In this document: piece by piece, positions 31,084 to 39,675 of the stretch
Layout of the letters: each line of letters opens with the position of its first letter
Numbering within the stretch: position 1 is the first letter of the stretch
Assembly (NCBI RefSeq): GCF_008326425.1
Contig: NZ_AP018929.1
Span: forward strand, 634,875-698,874
Source of the DNA: Sulfuracidifex tepidarius
GTDB taxonomy: Archaea; Thermoproteota; Thermoprotei_A; Sulfolobales; Sulfolobaceae
DNA length: 64,000 nt
Reading direction: 5' to 3'
The notes under the pieces: generated by a model
Told to the model about the DNA's origin: nothing
Database searches by the model: none
The model's input: the letters and a program-made list of their open reading frames with translations, nothing else
Program-made: the position numbers and the translations under genes

Positions 31084-31709
31084 AACACTTCTTGTTTTTC
31101 AAGAAATTTAAGTATATCCCTTTAAAATCGATTCCAAAATTCTTAAATTAATTATGTGTTAATGGTAATATATTGATTAAGGCCTATAGAGATATCATTT
31201 CAGGGAGAGACAGGCGACGAGTTAAGGTAAGTAATCCTTTCTTTTCCTACCCTAAATAAAGAGCTAGAGAGGACATATCTACTCCACTTCACGGACTTCG
31301 TTGTTCTCGTAATGTAATTTCTCTTTATCCGGACTGGCATAGGGAAGGTTAAAAGCTAGCTTCAAGACTTGAATGAAACACGAAGTCCTTTATCAATATT
31401 CACGTCCCTAGAGCGAAGTTACCAACCTAACACTAGTGGTTTCAAAGCGACGTAAACCTTAATCAAAGCAAATACGGAAGGTATTAGATGTATGAGACTG
31501 ACGAAACCCGTAGGTAACCTTAGTTTTCACGCCCGTTATGAGATAGAGATGGCACATTCAACTTCAAGCCTTATCTTTCAATGCCATTGACGTGGGCCAT
31601 AAAAACATGTTAAAAAAGTTTTTAAATGTTTAATATAACTATTTTATTATGTTATCAATCAAAACTTTCTTAATTAATTTTAATTTAATATTATCTTTTA
31701 TTTAGAAAG
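31084..31709. other. Divergent intergenic stretch
   Basis: Holds the promoters of cutB (left) and of the oxidase-like gene (right). The last 100 bases are extremely AT-rich. No gene or repeat was recognised. Confidence 0.5.
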
Positions 31710-33077
31710 GTGAGACCCGTGAGACTGAAAGAGATAGATCCAAGGGTCTTATACTTCCTTGGAGGAATATCCTGGTTAGGTATAACGGGAGTAGGGGCTA
31801 TGAACTTGAGGACGTATCTCCTCAATGAAGGGTCTGAGAACTTCGACGGGGTTTACTACTTCATGTTAACGCTTCACGGAGATTCCGGCATGATCGCTTT
31901 CGTGGAGTTCTCAGCCATAGCCTTGATCCTTTACTTGAACAAGATAGAAGGAAGAAAAACGATCATGAACGTGACATTTCTGACCTCCAATCTGGGCTTA
32001 TTGATCTTCTTTCTTGGGGGGCCGATTACGGGGTGGTACATGCTCTACCCCCTTTCAGTGCAACCGATCAGCTTCATAGGCATCTATCAAGACTACTGGA
32101 TAAGTTACGTAGGACTCCTGATCGAATCGTTCTCCATGGAGATATGTTCTCTCTATCTGTTTACAAAGGCTAAGGGTTTCTCTAGGATCCCCGCCGCGTT
32201 GATGACCTTCTCCATTCCCTTCTTGGCCTTGGTGAGCCTGCTGTACATCCTAGCTTCAAACGGTTACTCTTTCCCTCCCTTGATAGTCGATACTCTCTTC
32301 TGGGAATACGGTTCTCCCGCCACTTATTTCCTCACCTATTCGATCATAGCGCTCCTGTATTCAAGCATGAGGTCTTACAGCGAAAGGTGGAGGAAGTGGA
32401 CTGTGATCCCTCTGGCTGTCCTCCCCTTCATGATATTTGCTAACCATTTGCAGACGTGGCCTATCCCTGACTGGGTGAGGGAACTGTCAGACTTCTCAAC
32501 CATGTTCCTGACCGGGTTCCTAGGGATCACGTTCCTCAATATGGTCATACCCATCACCACAGAGAGAGGAAGATCCATCAAGGATTTCCTGAACAAGGTC
32601 ACTCTCCTAGGCTTCGCCGTATCTTCAGCTCCCTCGGTGATCTTACCGTTCAGCTTCTTTGATCCTGAAGTGCATGACACCTACTTCGTAGTAGGTAGCT
32701 TCCATTCCATAGTGTGGGACTTCCTGGTACTAGGGTTTCTAGCTTGTTTCGCTTCCTTCGTTAGTGATAGAGTCGAGATCGGCAAAGGAGAAACGTTGGT
32801 AAAGGTGGGTGCTTTAACGTGGTTGGGGTCGTCTACTCTCCTAAGTTATGTCATGATGGCTGCAGGCCTCTACGGACTCATAAGGAGAGAGATACATTTC
32901 CCCTTGGTTTTCATTCCGTACATGGATTTAATGAGTTGGCTCGCCTTTATTGCTTTATCCGGGATCTCCTTAGCTTTCTCGGTATTACTGATCAGGCTAG
33001 CCTCAAGCTCAAAGATGAAGTTAGACAGCCCAACTAAAAGAATAGAGAACTTTCTAACTATACTGAAGAGAAAATGA
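31710..33077 (+). CDS. Haem-copper oxidase subunit I-like protein without the O2-reducing site
   Basis: 455 residues with about 12 membrane segments, in a frame that starts at GTG. The subunit I landmarks are in order but altered. LTLHGDSGM has the low-spin haem His (His56). The Cu_B block, normally GHPEVY, reads FWEYGSPATY, with Ser202 in place of His. The HH pair reads ANHLQTW with one His (His246). The block normally VVAHFHY is HDTYFVVGSFHSIV: the high-spin haem ligand is Ser330, the low-spin ligand His332 stays. Thus a low-spin haem b can bind but the haem-Cu_B centre cannot. It lies between cutABC and the fdh genes, so a role as haem- or quinone-linked membrane anchor for one of them is possible (inference). 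No subunit II gene is nearby. Confidence 0.82.
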   Translation: MRPVRLKEIDPRVLYFLGGISWLGITGVGAMNLRTYLLNEGSENFDGVYYFMLTLHGDSGMIAFVEFSAIALILYLNKIEGRKTIMNVTFLTSNLGLLIFFLGGPITGWYMLYPLSVQPISFIGIYQDYWISYVGLLIESFSMEICSLYLFTKAKGFSRIPAALMTFSIPFLALVSLLYILASNGYSFPPLIVDTLFWEYGSPATYFLTYSIIALLYSSMRSYSERWRKWTVIPLAVLPFMIFANHLQTWPIPDWVRELSDFSTMFLTGFLGITFLNMVIPITTERGRSIKDFLNKVTLLGFAVSSAPSVILPFSFFDPEVHDTYFVVGSFHSIVWDFLVLGFLACFASFVSDRVEIGKGETLVKVGALTWLGSSTLLSYVMMAAGLYGLIRREIHFPLVFIPYMDLMSWLAFIALSGISLAFSVLLIRLASSSKMKLDSPTKRIENFLTILKRK

Positions 33078-33341: not shown

Positions 33342-34112
33342 TCAGTTTAAGTCGAAAACTATGCGTTCTGGATGGGAATACACGTTCAGCCTTCCCTCCC
33401 TGACGAAGCCGACGAGGGATATGCCCGCGATGTGGGAGAGTTCCACTGCTGAACTAGTGGGAGCTGAGATAGCGGAGACCACTGGGAATCCTATCATGGC
33501 TGCCTTCTGGATTATTTCGTAACCCACTCTACCGCTAACTTGGAGTATAAGATCGTGGGCGTCTTTACCCGCCTTGAGCAGTTTTCCTATGACCTTGTCT
33601 ACGGCGTTGTGCCTCCCTACGTCCTCTGCTATGAACAGGGGATTGCCATTCACGTCAAACACACAGGAAGCGTGCATACCTCCGGTCTCCAGGAAGGCCC
33701 TCTGAAACGACCTCATCTTCCTCGGTAGATCCATCAACACGCTCGACCTGACCTTCAAGGTTTCGTCCTGCCTGAACTGAACGAAAGGAATAGAGGAGGA
33801 ACTGCACACTCCGCAACTGGAGTTCACCATGGTGTCCCTGAGCTGAAACGGGCTTCTCACCTTCACCTTGACTGAGTTATCGTGGAGTTGCATGAGCTCT
33901 ATGTCGTCAATCCCCCTGATTGCGCCCTGAGTGAAGAGGAACCCTAGGACGAGGAAGTCGTCGTCCCCCGGTGTCCTCATGATGTAGATAGACCTTGAGG
34001 TTTCCCCGTGTACTACCGTGAGTTTCAGCGGCTCCTCACTCGCTATTTCGTCCTCCTGAACCCACGACTTTCCTTCCTCATACCTTAGGACCTCAACTCT
34101 CCTCTCACTCAT
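33342..34112 (-). CDS. fdhD: FdhD, sulfur carrier for formate dehydrogenase
   Basis: About 256 residues from ATG 34112 ([14 protein letters not shown]); this start overlaps the stop of the gene before it. The functional cysteines are in NSSCGVCSSSSIPF (CxxC), followed by GGMHASCVFD and AEDVGRHNAVDKVIGKLLKA, all FdhD signatures. FdhD passes sulfur from a cysteine desulfurase to the bis-MGD cofactor of formate dehydrogenase. It is third gene of the fdh operon. Confidence 0.95.
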   Translation of the reverse strand: MSERRVEVLRYEEGKSWVQEDEIASEEPLKLTVVHGETSRSIYIMRTPGDDDFLVLGFLFTQGAIRGIDDIELMQLHDNSVKVKVRSPFQLRDTMVNSSCGVCSSSSIPFVQFRQDETLKVRSSVLMDLPRKMRSFQRAFLETGGMHASCVFDVNGNPLFIAEDVGRHNAVDKVIGKLLKAGKDAHDLILQVSGRVGYEIIQKAAMIGFPVVSAISAPTSSAVELSHIAGISLVGFVREGRLNVYSHPERIVFDLN

Positions 34113-34425
34113 GCAGTGTCTCACCTATGGACTTCATCAGGGAGAGGAAGAAAGATATGCCAGCCAACACGTCGGGGTCCCTCAACATCTTGAGTAGGTC
34201 AGTCAAAGTCTCGGCCTTCTTCAACGAGTCGGGATCGAGTTTACTCATAGCCGCCATGAGTGTGGACATGTTCTTCATCACGTTTGAGTTGTTCTGCAAC
34301 CAGTTCGCTACCTCTAGCAGGACTCCTTGTCTGCTCTTAAGCAGGGAGTTGAGGATGTCCAACACGCCAGCCTCGTCCATCTGCCTCATAATTTCCATTA
34401 TTTTCTCTATCTCACTGTCGCTCAT
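34105..34425 (-). CDS. DUF1641 family protein
   Basis: 106 residues, all helical ([20 protein letters not shown], later [20 protein letters not shown]). The family is small and often stands beside FdhF-type formate dehydrogenases in bacteria and archaea, as here: its start overlaps the stop of the fdh gene by four bases and its stop overlaps fdhD. The precise role is unknown; an assembly or membrane-association role is commonly assumed. Confidence 0.85.
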
Positions 34426-37337
34426 TGGTCTACCACCTTTTCATAGTCCTTCCTTTCCCACTTCCTCTCTACCATGACCCCGCGTTGAGGGGTCCTCTCA
34501 GCGTTCCTCGGGTTCCACCTAGGTAAAGGTGGCTCACACGTGGAACATGACTCTATCTTCTCTATCTTCACCGGTATCTCCTTGTATGCAGGAGTTCTAG
34601 CTGTGGGGTCCTTCTCGTTGAGGGTGACGATGTTCACGTTCATATCCTTGTCGTCGTGGATTGAGAGGAAGACCTTATTCCCGGATACCCTACCACTGAC
34701 GAGAACCTTAGTCCTCAATTTTCCGGTCTCCGACATCACCATCACTGTGTCACCGTCCTTCAGATCGTAACTCTCAGCGGTATGTGGGGATACCTCGAGG
34801 AAGGTCTCTGGTACTTTATACATGATCCCTTGGGTTTTACCGGTCATCCTCATCCAGTGGAAGTGTTCCAGCATCCTTCCGTTCACTAGGTACAAGTTAT
34901 ACTCTTGATCGGTCTTCACAGGAGGTATCTCCTTGGTCACGTAAAACTTAGCCTTCCCGTCGGGGAAAGGAAACCTCTCCTCGTACAGGAAGCGAGAGTC
35001 CTTGTTCCCTTCCAGAGGCCAGAGGACGCTCTTGAACCCCTCCAACTTGTCGTACGTAACTCCCGCGTAGATAGGAACAGTAGAGGATATCTCCTCCATA
35101 ATCTGGGAGGGGTGAACGTAGTTCCATCCAGCGCCCATCTGGTTTGCTACCATCTGTATAATCTCCCAGTCGGGTTTAGACTCACCTAACGGTTCCATGA
35201 CCTTGTATAACCTCTGAATCCTCCTCTCGGTGTTGGTGAAAGTACCTTCCTTCTCTAGGAAGGCTGCTGCTGGCAGGATCACGTGAGCGTATTTAGCTGT
35301 CTCGGTGAAGAACATGTCCTGAACTACGAGGAAGTCCAGCTTGCTCAACGCCTCCCTTGTCTTGCTCTGGTCGGAGTCAGCTAAGACCTTGTCCTCACCC
35401 ATGATGTACACTGCGTGAATCTTCCCCTGGAGAATTGCGTCCACCATGTCCGTACTTGTAAGACCTGGTTCCCTGGGTATTTTCGTTCCCCACGCGTCCT
35501 CCAATCTCCTGATCGCCTCATCACTATAAGGCTGATATCCCGGTAGGTAATTGGGGAGGGCACCTACGTCGCCTACTCCCTGAACGTTTGCGTGTCCCCT
35601 GAGCGGAAAAGCGCCTGAACAAGGCTTTCCGTAGTTGCCCGTCAACAAGAGGAGGTTCGAGATAGCTGTAGAGGTTTCGCTTCCGTCCTGGTGCTGTGTC
35701 ACCCCCATAGCCCAAGCTATCGCAAGTGTCCCACTCTCATGTATCATCTTAGCTATCTCCTCAACTACGTCTCCCTTGACTCCGGTGACCTTCTCCACGT
35801 ACTCAGTGGTATACTTTTCCAAACTCTTCCTATAGACCTCAAAGCCGTTAGTCCTCCTCTCTATAAACTCCTTGTCCTCCCACCCGTGGTCTAGGATAGC
35901 CTTAGCAATCCCGTTTATCAACACTACGTCGGTTCCTAAGTTAGGTGTTACGAAGAGGTCGGCCCTCTCTGCCATTTCGTGCTTCCTTACGTCGATTACA
36001 ACCAGCTTCTTTCCTTCCAGTTTGTGAGCCCTCTTTATCTTCCCAGCGATGACTGGGTGAGCCTCTGCCGTGTTGGTCCCGATGAGGATCACTAGGTTCG
36101 CACAAGCTAGGTCGTCTGAGGAGCCGCTGTCAGCTCCGTACCCCACTGTCCTTATCAGACCCGTTGTGGCTGGGGACTGACAATACCTCGCACAGTTATC
36201 GACGTTGTTGGTCCCTATCACTGCCCTCGCGAACTTCTGTGCCAAGTAACCTTCCTCGTTTGTGGAAGTACAAGACGCGATTACTCCTACCGAATCGGGT
36301 CCGAACTTTTCTTTAACCTCCCGAAGCTTACTCGCGACCAGACGTATAGCTTCCTCCCACGAGGTCTCCCTGAAATGGTCACCCTCTCTCACTAGAGGTT
36401 TAGTTAACCTTTCACCACTGTTTACGAAGTTCAGCCCGAACTTCCCTTTGATACAAGTCGCGACACCGTTAGCAGGGGACTCGGGCTTGGGCTCTACCTT
36501 CAGGATCTTTCTCCCCTTAGTCCAGACCTCGAACGAACAGCCGGTACCACAGAATGTGCACACGGTCTTGGTCTTCTTTATCAAGGAATTCCTCATCCTC
36601 TTATCGATATCACTTATCAACATGAAGGGGGAGAAGTCCTTCTCGCCCGCCTTTGCTGCGTCGATTAGCTTGTCCTTAACCTCCTTGTTTATCCCTGTAA
36701 AGTAACCTGCCTCTCCAAGGATGGACTTCTCCATTAGTGCGTTAACCGGACAGACGGTGACGCATGTACCGCAAGAGACGCAGGAGGAATAATCCACGGT
36801 TTTACCGTTGCTCCATACAACCCTGGGAGGGTTCAAGTCCCAGTTTATCCTGATTACCTCGTTCACCACTACGTCCTGGCAAGCTTCAACGCACCTCCCG
36901 CAGAGTATGCACTGTTTAGGGTCGTACACGTAGAAAGGATTAGAGTCATCTACCTCGTAGGGCTTGGGGACGAAGTGTTGTGAGTAAACCCCCTCCCTTG
37001 ATACCGCTTCGTGGAGCTCACAGTCAACGTTGTTGTCGCAAAACGTACAGTACAAGTTGTGGTTCTTGAGCACAGTGTCAAAAGCCTTCCTTCTAACTCC
37101 CTTGACTTTTTCATTATCAGTGTTCACTACCATTCCTTGCTCCACTTTCGTTTCACATGATCTTACAATCTTTCCGTTTGCCTCAACGAGACATAAATCG
37201 CAAGTCCTAATGGGACCTAACCGGGGGTTATAACATACGTGAGGAACGTAAATCCCGTTCCTCTCTAGGACGGTTAAAATCGTGTCTCCCTCTTCTGCTG
37301 TAACTTCCCTATTATTTAGTTTAATTCGAAGAGGCAT
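34422..37337 (-). CDS. fdhF: Formate dehydrogenase alpha subunit with NuoG-like ferredoxin N-terminus
   Basis: 971 residues. Residues 1-80 form a [2Fe-2S] ferredoxin domain (C35, C46, C49, C61). Residues 90-110 carry the HxxxCxxCxxxxxC cluster motif (H93, C97, C100, C106), and 143-196 a 2x[4Fe-4S] domain. The molybdopterin oxidoreductase part follows, with its own [4Fe-4S] site (C260, C263, C267, C295). The Mo ligand is Cys386 in [18 protein letters not shown], but the next residue, His in known formate dehydrogenases, is Gln387. The substrate Arg is present in [20 protein letters not shown]. The operon context (DUF1641, FdhD) supports a formate dehydrogenase. The missing His leaves room for another substrate. 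No signal peptide: cytoplasmic. Confidence 0.9.
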
Positions 37338-37499
37338 GAAAAATAAGTATCAACTAACTTTTAAAAAGTTTTGTTAGAGTGAAAATTTAGTAGATATTAG
37401 ATGAAAAATCTAAATTGTATAAAAACTTATTTTAAGTTTTATAGCTTAATTAGATAAATCAAGATAGCTTTTTATACTTTAGAAAATAAGTTTAAACAC
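37338..37499. promoter_or_regulatory. Divergent promoter region of the fdh operon and the YaaH-like transporter
   Basis: 162 AT-rich bases between two divergent starts. It contains TTTTTATACTTTA about 25 bases before the right-hand ATG and several TTTAAA-like boxes leftward. There are two small palindromes: AACTTTTAAAAAGTT near 37355 and TTAGAT, GAAAA, ATCTAA near 37397. A shared regulator is plausible. Confidence 0.5.
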
Positions 37500-38078
37500 A
37501 TGGTAGGTCCTCTTCCACCCTTAGCGGTCGGATTCTTCGGGCTAGGAACAGGATATTATATATACGGTGGTACTGAATTTTTTAGGTTCCCAAAGGACGG
37601 AGGCACTGCCCTTAACCATTCGCTGGGACAATGGGGCATATGGATGCCGGGTTTCCTTCAGTTCTTGACTGGGACTTATTTATGGCTCGGGCTTACCGTG
37701 TTTAAAGCGTTCCAGTCAAGTCCAGTAACCTACATGGCTGCACTTGCGTTCACTGCGTACGGTGTCCATTGGTTCGCACTCGGAATCAACAAATATATAG
37801 GCGGAGATAGCAGGGTCGACGGTTACATGGCTATAGCTTTCCTGTGGATATCCATTATAGGAGCTACCGTGTTCGGCTATGCTAAAGATTACCCTGTAAT
37901 GGTATTATTCATTTTGCTGGCTTTAGTTTACATTTCCGATATCCCGGCAAGCTTGCTACAATCACCCTCATGGACTAGGGTAAAAGGATTTTGGCATCTG
38001 ATTACGGGAACATGGCTTATGTACCTTACATTCGCCGCGGCATTAAACTTCGGCTTAGGATTCACTCTCCCACTGTGA
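37500..38078 (+). CDS. GPR1/FUN34/YaaH family carboxylate transporter
   Basis: 192 residues with six membrane segments, the family's usual size. The N-terminus PLPPLAVGFFGLGTGYYIYG matches the position of the NPAPLGL motif in a changed form; LGQWGIWMPGFLQFLTGTYL and AYGVHWFALGINKYIGG follow. Members carry acetate, succinate or other small acids across the membrane. Its position, divergent from the formate dehydrogenase with a shared promoter region, suggests formate or another short acid as substrate (inference). Confidence 0.85.
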   Translation: MVGPLPPLAVGFFGLGTGYYIYGGTEFFRFPKDGGTALNHSLGQWGIWMPGFLQFLTGTYLWLGLTVFKAFQSSPVTYMAALAFTAYGVHWFALGINKYIGGDSRVDGYMAIAFLWISIIGATVFGYAKDYPVMVLFILLALVYISDIPASLLQSPSWTRVKGFWHLITGTWLMYLTFAAALNFGLGFTLPL

Positions 38079-38823: not shown

Positions 38824-39675
38824 ATGGGAGTAGAGATGAAAGTGGGAGTGATAGGACTTGGCAGAATGGGCTCTGGCATGTCCAACAACTTGATCAGGAA
38901 AGGACACGAAGTTTACGGTTTTGACGTAAACCAAGAGTCGTACAATAGGTGTAAGGCCATACCCATGCAACCGCAGGAGATGGCCAAGAGGGCTGACGTG
39001 ATCATCCTCTCCCTTCCCACGGGGAACGAAGTCAAGGAAGCACTGAACCTATTGAAGGACTTCAGGGGTACGATAATTGACACGACCACCCTCAGCGTAG
39101 ACGAGGTGTTGCAGGTCCTGGACCAGGCAAGCATAAATCTGGATTACTTCACGTGTAGGCTGGAGAGGGGCCCGAAGGAAGCCAACGAGGGAACTCTTGC
39201 CATTTACTGTGGTGGGGACAGAAAGACATACGAGAAACTGAACCCTCTCCTTAACGACATGGGGGAACACGTGTATCTTGGGAGCCACGTGCAGGCTACA
39301 ATGCTGAAGTTGTTGGGGAACATAATAGGCACTGTAATCGTGGCGCTCAACGCTGAGGTCTCAACTGTCATGAGGACTTTAGACTTGGATCCAGAGACCG
39401 CAGTTAAGGCCCTTTCCATGGGCGGGGCCAACAACGCTCAACTTTTCAGGCTAATATGGCAAGCTAAAGGGCAACATCATGAGTCGTTCTCTCTGGACTT
39501 AGCACAACACGTCGTGGAGATGGCAATAAACTCGTGTAAAAGGTACGGAGTCAAATACCTACCTCTCGCGGAGCTGACTAACGGTATGATGCTCACGGCT
39601 AAGTCGTTAGGCATAGGGAAAAGGGACGTGTCAGAAATATCGAAGTTGCTTGACATGATCAACTCCTCAAAGTGA
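38824..39675 (+). CDS. 3-hydroxyisobutyrate dehydrogenase family NAD(P)-dependent oxidoreductase
   Basis: 283 residues. The Rossmann motif is KVGVIGLGRMGSGMSNNLIR (about 6-25), followed by DVIILSLPTGNEVK and IIDTTTLSVDEV. The catalytic Lys is in MLKLLGNIIGTVIVALNAE, with the expected Lys-x3-Asn. The substrate loop, normally DAPVSGG, reads TCRLERGPKEANEGTL, so the hydroxyacid bound is probably not the standard one. It could act on a beta-hydroxyacid such as tartronate semialdehyde or a relative, or on succinate semialdehyde. A second in-frame ATG (38836) is a possible start. Single gene. Confidence 0.85.
   Translation: MGVEMKVGVIGLGRMGSGMSNNLIRKGHEVYGFDVNQESYNRCKAIPMQPQEMAKRADVIILSLPTGNEVKEALNLLKDFRGTIIDTTTLSVDEVLQVLDQASINLDYFTCRLERGPKEANEGTLAIYCGGDRKTYEKLNPLLNDMGEHVYLGSHVQATMLKLLGNIIGTVIVALNAEVSTVMRTLDLDPETAVKALSMGGANNAQLFRLIWQAKGQHHESFSLDLAQHVVEMAINSCKRYGVKYLPLAELTNGMMLTAKSLGIGKRDVSEISKLLDMINSSK

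Follow-up and report, generated by a model that had tools for sequence, protein, structure and literature searches.

The window, a stretch of 64,000 nucleotides from Sulfuracidifex tepidarius, carries between cutBCA and fdhD a gene for a 455-aa homolog of haem-copper oxidase subunit I. Its features are given below, with ligand positions taken from alignments with Sulfolobales SoxB/DoxB proteins and solved COX1 structures (PDB 5z62, 7jro), and with the codons read.

31601..31709, + strand, 5' block (about 110 bases before the start) conserved with the orthologue of Sulfolobus sp. UBA167
31710..33077, + strand, pseudo-oxidase subunit I ORF, SoxB-derived (GTG start, 455 aa)
31875..31877, + strand, His56, low-spin haem ligand kept (alignment, codon)
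32313..32315, + strand, Ser202, replacing the first Cu_B His (GHPVVY to GSPATY; alignment, codon)
32442..32447, + strand, Asn245-His246, replacing the Cu_B HH pair (alignment, codons)
32511..32525, + strand, helix VIII, ASGSG to TGFLG, residues 268-272 (alignment)
32673..32675, + strand, His322, conserved outer-side His, equivalent to His368 of mitochondrial COX1 (alignment, codon)
32697..32699, + strand, Ser330, replacing the high-spin haem His (GHFH to GSFH; alignment, codon)
32703..32705, + strand, His332, second low-spin haem ligand kept (alignment, codon)
32883..32888, + strand, Arg392-Arg393, haem-propionate arginine pair kept (alignment, codons)

The initial annotation of this gene as a subunit I homolog is borne out by the Pfam COX1 profile, which matches the protein with 107 bits (cut-off 34.8) over profile positions 4-435 of 436 and places it by homology in the haem-copper oxidase superfamily. 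The closest NCBIfam family is SoxB (NF041075), although the score of 251.7 bits is far under the equivalog cut-off of 700, whereas a true SoxB from the same genome reaches 729 bits. When compared to the B-type SoxB/DoxB quinol oxidase subunits I of Sulfolobales, the protein has the same fold (~32% identity over nearly full length), low-spin His pair, Arg pair and outer-side His, but three of the four active-site His are gone, helix VIII is bulkier, the helix IV-VI loops are shorter, and neither a subunit II gene nor any other oxidase gene adjoins it. Five further COX1 genes (222-262 bits) are found in the window genome, a single contig of 2.56 Mb whose only two COX2 matches lie at ~329 kb and ~1,880 kb, far from the pseudo-oxidase gene at 667 kb. 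The earlier observation that the gene is without a subunit II thus stands, and the adjacent subunit II gene of a SoxABC-type quinol oxidase complex is missing.

Two haems and Cu_B together require six ligand His, and the whole protein contains five (56, 246, 322, 332 and 396), four of them at matching positions in the orthologue. The two low-spin haem His are present as His56 and His332. The high-spin haem His of a functional haem-copper oxygen or NO reductase is replaced by Ser330, and the three Cu_B (or Fe_B) His are represented by Ser202, Asn245 and the single remaining His246. Every ligand statement of the initial annotation is correct. Because the protein has only five His, no substitute lies near the lost Cu_B and high-spin ligands, and a misalignment in the earlier reading can be rejected, as the Sulfolobales and PDB alignments both agree with it. 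In the comparison with mitochondrial/A-type COX1 (PDB 5z62, 7jro), the ligand helices align residue by residue, with Ser, Asn and Ser standing at the positions of His240, His290 and His376 of the mitochondrial protein. In helix VIII, Phe270 and Leu271 stand for a Gly and a Ser that are invariant in SoxB, while Arg34, Trp198, Tyr206 and His246 are kept in the alignment. The same ligands are intact in 29/29 SoxB/DoxB-like relatives compared, and losses of this kind are absent from the other COX1 proteins read, a subset of the ~150 COX1 matches in the family. Judged from these residues, the 455-aa protein is without a usable oxygen-reduction centre, and all of the sequence evidence backs the earlier proposal that it cannot reduce oxygen but could carry one haem b, the latter as a possible retention. 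An AlphaFold2 model of the protein built from two sequences has a pLDDT of 33.

Among 229 genomes of the class, we find one intact orthologue (80% identity), that of Sulfolobus sp. UBA167 (G202), which belongs to the same genus as the window genome, and two broken remnants in two further genera (genomes G179 and G203). The G179 remnant is a C-terminal half with stop codons that reads FANHL*TW ... HNTYYVVGSFHA; it has the same Asn and Ser as the window protein at positions 245 and 330, and the Phe-Leu pair of helix VIII. Ser330 is also found in the UBA167 orthologue. The G203 remnant is an N-terminal piece carrying His56. In the tree, all four copies form one clade with 100/100 support on a long stem beside SoxB, the nearest clade, although the branching inside it is unreliable, as the remnants are partial. 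The ex-oxidase clade is, by this placement, a diverged SoxB-derived branch spanning three genera. The shared Asn/Ser state in the remnant and the single clade imply that catalysis was apparently lost before at least two of these genera separated, unless a degenerate gene moved between them. Searches of the genome contigs returned no further members with one sequence as query and only UBA167 with two; a SoxB alignment query found no member in viral contigs, and a plasmid search gave only a 25% cbb3-type match. The genome of S. metallicus is also without the gene.

Several other loci are of note. The low-scoring COX1 genes of Saccharolobus, considered as a second degenerate type, were rejected as such, being qNOR-like with all ligands present; these homologues (541-718 aa, active-site His complete) occur in 4/7 genomes of genus g7, which is probably Saccharolobus (L114-L117). 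A CoxG-like identity for the neighbour of the G179 remnant was likewise dropped, as the protein has no Pfam or NCBIfam match, and a nucleotidyltransferase/HEPN pair adjoins the G203 remnant (L037 8561-9293). S. metallicus has an ordinary SoxB in which every ligand is present but the coding sequence falls into two overlapping ORFs (L038 8761-10364), owing to a frameshift or an assembly error. On the same contig region, two adjacent blue-copper-like proteins (L038 6282-6959 and 7093-7710) differ in their N-termini and are identical in their C-terminal halves, which suggests a recent duplication or gene conversion.

The distribution of retained residues bears on whether a haem is still held. The pseudo-oxidase retains 70 of the 135 positions that do not vary among 29 SoxB/DoxB-like proteins, with 31/43 kept in helices I-III, XI and XII, the low-spin haem side, versus 31/73 in helices IV-IX, the former binuclear side (Fisher p = 0.002; helix borders were drawn by hand after alignment inspection). 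A rival explanation is that the protein is a haem-free regulatory or structural pseudo-subunit that acts by protein contact, as many pseudoenzymes do, for example by pairing with SoxB-type oxidases or helping in their assembly. The high-spin cavity appears to be filled by Phe270 and Leu271 and there is no linked subunit II, both of which would suit such a role. Against it, the low-spin His pair, Arg34, the Arg pair and most of the low-spin-haem invariants are kept, in the remnants too where these are covered, and we therefore regard a haem-free subunit as unlikely, if still a serious contender.

The two intact genes differ with dN 0.116 and dS 1.53 (NG86), giving a dN/dS of ~0.08 that rests on two sequences and a dS close to saturation. 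For the same genome pair, dN/dS is 0.03 for SoxB, 0.04 for CutA and 0.06 for CutB, such that the pseudo-oxidase value exceeds the SoxB value two- to threefold. The 5' block shared with UBA167 includes a TATA/BRE-like box, AAAAAAGTTTTTAAATG, at 31612, while the rest of the adjoining intergenic region has diverged between the two genomes. Within the protein, identity between the orthologues is higher in windows around the former ligands (97/109, 89%) than elsewhere (264/346, 76%; p = 0.004), the core windows again being drawn by hand after alignment inspection. Both conservation tests fit a protein in which the former active-site half would have been reshaped and the new form then fixed, while the low-spin haem half was preserved. 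The low dN/dS, the conserved promoter block and the strong conservation of the ex-catalytic core indicate that the intact gene is, in at least one genus, under purifying selection and not simply decaying. These observations weigh on the view that the gene is a functionless relic of an inactive oxidase paralogue heading to loss. Such a relic would account for the stops or truncation in the G179 and G203 remnants, for the missing gene in S. metallicus and for a rate of evolution faster than that of SoxB, but the gene is full-length in both Sulfuracidifex-type genomes, its changes avoid the ex-catalytic core, and the G179 remnant already has the Asn/Ser state, so that loss of catalysis preceded its decay. 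We consider simple decay to be decidedly unlikely.

The surroundings of the gene had led to a further proposal in the initial annotation, that the protein is a membrane or quinone anchor for the formate dehydrogenase FdhF or for CutABC, the latter a glyceraldehyde dehydrogenase by NCBIfam. The description of the gene as beside a formate dehydrogenase operon is correct in distance, but the gene is not part of that operon, as it lies on the opposite strand. Because cutBCA is transcribed away from it and fdhD towards it, it is predicted to be its own transcription unit, outside the fdhD operon. The block at 33342-38078 of the window, consisting of fdhD-DUF1641-fdhF and a divergent 192-aa membrane protein with a weak acetate-transporter match, is missing in its entirety at the UBA167 locus and thus behaves like an insertion/deletion module.

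Comparison across genomes also separates the gene from its neighbours. At the UBA167 locus, cutBCA is again a neighbour of the gene, but the entire fdh block is missing and the 3' neighbour is a hydroxyisobutyrate-dehydrogenase-like gene, equivalent to that at 38824 of the window; the absence at the locus is direct, while absence of fdh elsewhere in this genome is unsure at 71% completeness. As the genome is of the same genus, the recurrence of the cut neighbourhood is not independent. In S. metallicus, by contrast, fdhF-DUF1641-fdhD adjoin cutBCA and an unrelated 392-aa ORF fills the place of the pseudo-oxidase. The fdhF of the complete S. metallicus genome (G201) itself is in three frameshifted pieces (L108 1504-4411), with DUF1641 and fdhD intact, and may be a pseudogene or reflect sequencing errors. 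Among 31 Sulfolobaceae genomes, ForC-type fdhF is found in 27 and fdhD in 28, and the window genome is the only one of the 27 fdhF-bearing genomes with an intact pseudo-oxidase gene. ForC-type fdhF and fdhD were not found in 2/4 genomes that carry an intact or broken copy (UBA167 and G179). The closest glyceraldehyde-dehydrogenase-type CutA homologues (at least 63% identity) occur in 27/31 genomes, 25 of which lack an intact pseudo-oxidase. The gene is thus unlinked to fdh, and the co-transcription and co-occurrence with a catalytic subunit that characterize an FdnI-like cytochrome b are not seen here.

In haem-copper oxidases, moreover, the low-spin haem sits close to the outer face, where electrons from cytoplasmic enzymes would not readily reach it. 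The window FdhF has YCQ (385) and RGH (580) motifs and a DUF1641 partner, which is the ForCE arrangement, with the CQ and RGH motifs of the ForCE-type formate dehydrogenase (PMC8808070). In Bacillus ForCE, electrons from formate pass through the DUF1641 subunit to menaquinone, and no haem or transmembrane helix takes part (PMC8808070); this type of enzyme, here a separate convergent unit, needs no membrane haem protein, and its own quinone coupling makes an additional anchor unnecessary. The neighbourhood in the window is what favours an anchor; with the related fdhF and CutA genomes nearly all without the gene, we consider this role very improbable and do not retain the proposal. Less probable still is a new enzyme with a remodelled pocket (Ser202, Asn245, His246, Tyr206 and Ser330) holding a different metal or substrate, since, although the orthologues agree best in the pocket windows and Trp198, Tyr206 and His246 are retained, few metal ligands are left, helix VIII is filled by Phe and Leu, and there is no candidate substrate.

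The reading we favour, with a probability of roughly 45%, is that the gene encodes a free-standing pseudo-oxidase of SoxB origin and that this is probably a membrane cytochrome b with one haem, serving as an electron relay or regulator. Such a protein would no longer reduce oxygen, but it retains the subunit I fold together with the two His that would bind a single low-spin haem close to the outer side of the membrane. In this scheme, a SoxB-type subunit I paralogue has lost its haem-copper centre and the resulting protein would still bind one haem b. Its electron donor would be caldariellaquinol or a carrier on the outer face, and the electrons would be relayed or sensed, perhaps while the protein is bound to one of the cell's intact terminal oxidases; it would not anchor the adjoining formate or aldehyde dehydrogenase. 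An oxidase copy that has no oxygen site and is still under selection probably has some job other than respiration. The favoured reading is weakened by the breakage of 2/4 known copies, which shows that some lineages can do without the function, and by a dN/dS two- to threefold above the SoxB value. A further, tentative proposition, which we rate as less likely than not, is that losing the binuclear centre was by itself enough to turn the haem-copper oxidase fold into a one-haem membrane cytochrome b that stands free and has taken on a new role in electron transfer or sensing in Sulfolobales.

The haem-copper centre is taken as the defining feature of oxidase subunit I, and a full-text literature search of partial coverage yielded no description of a maintained subunit I without these ligands. 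Within the literature so covered, the pseudo-oxidase branch of the SoxB lineage is new. A COX1 domain match does not always denote a terminal oxidase. If the reading is true, a maintained, ancient pseudo-oxidase would mean that the half of the fold around the low-spin haem is usable alone, and it would offer a natural test of the role of this half without oxygen chemistry.
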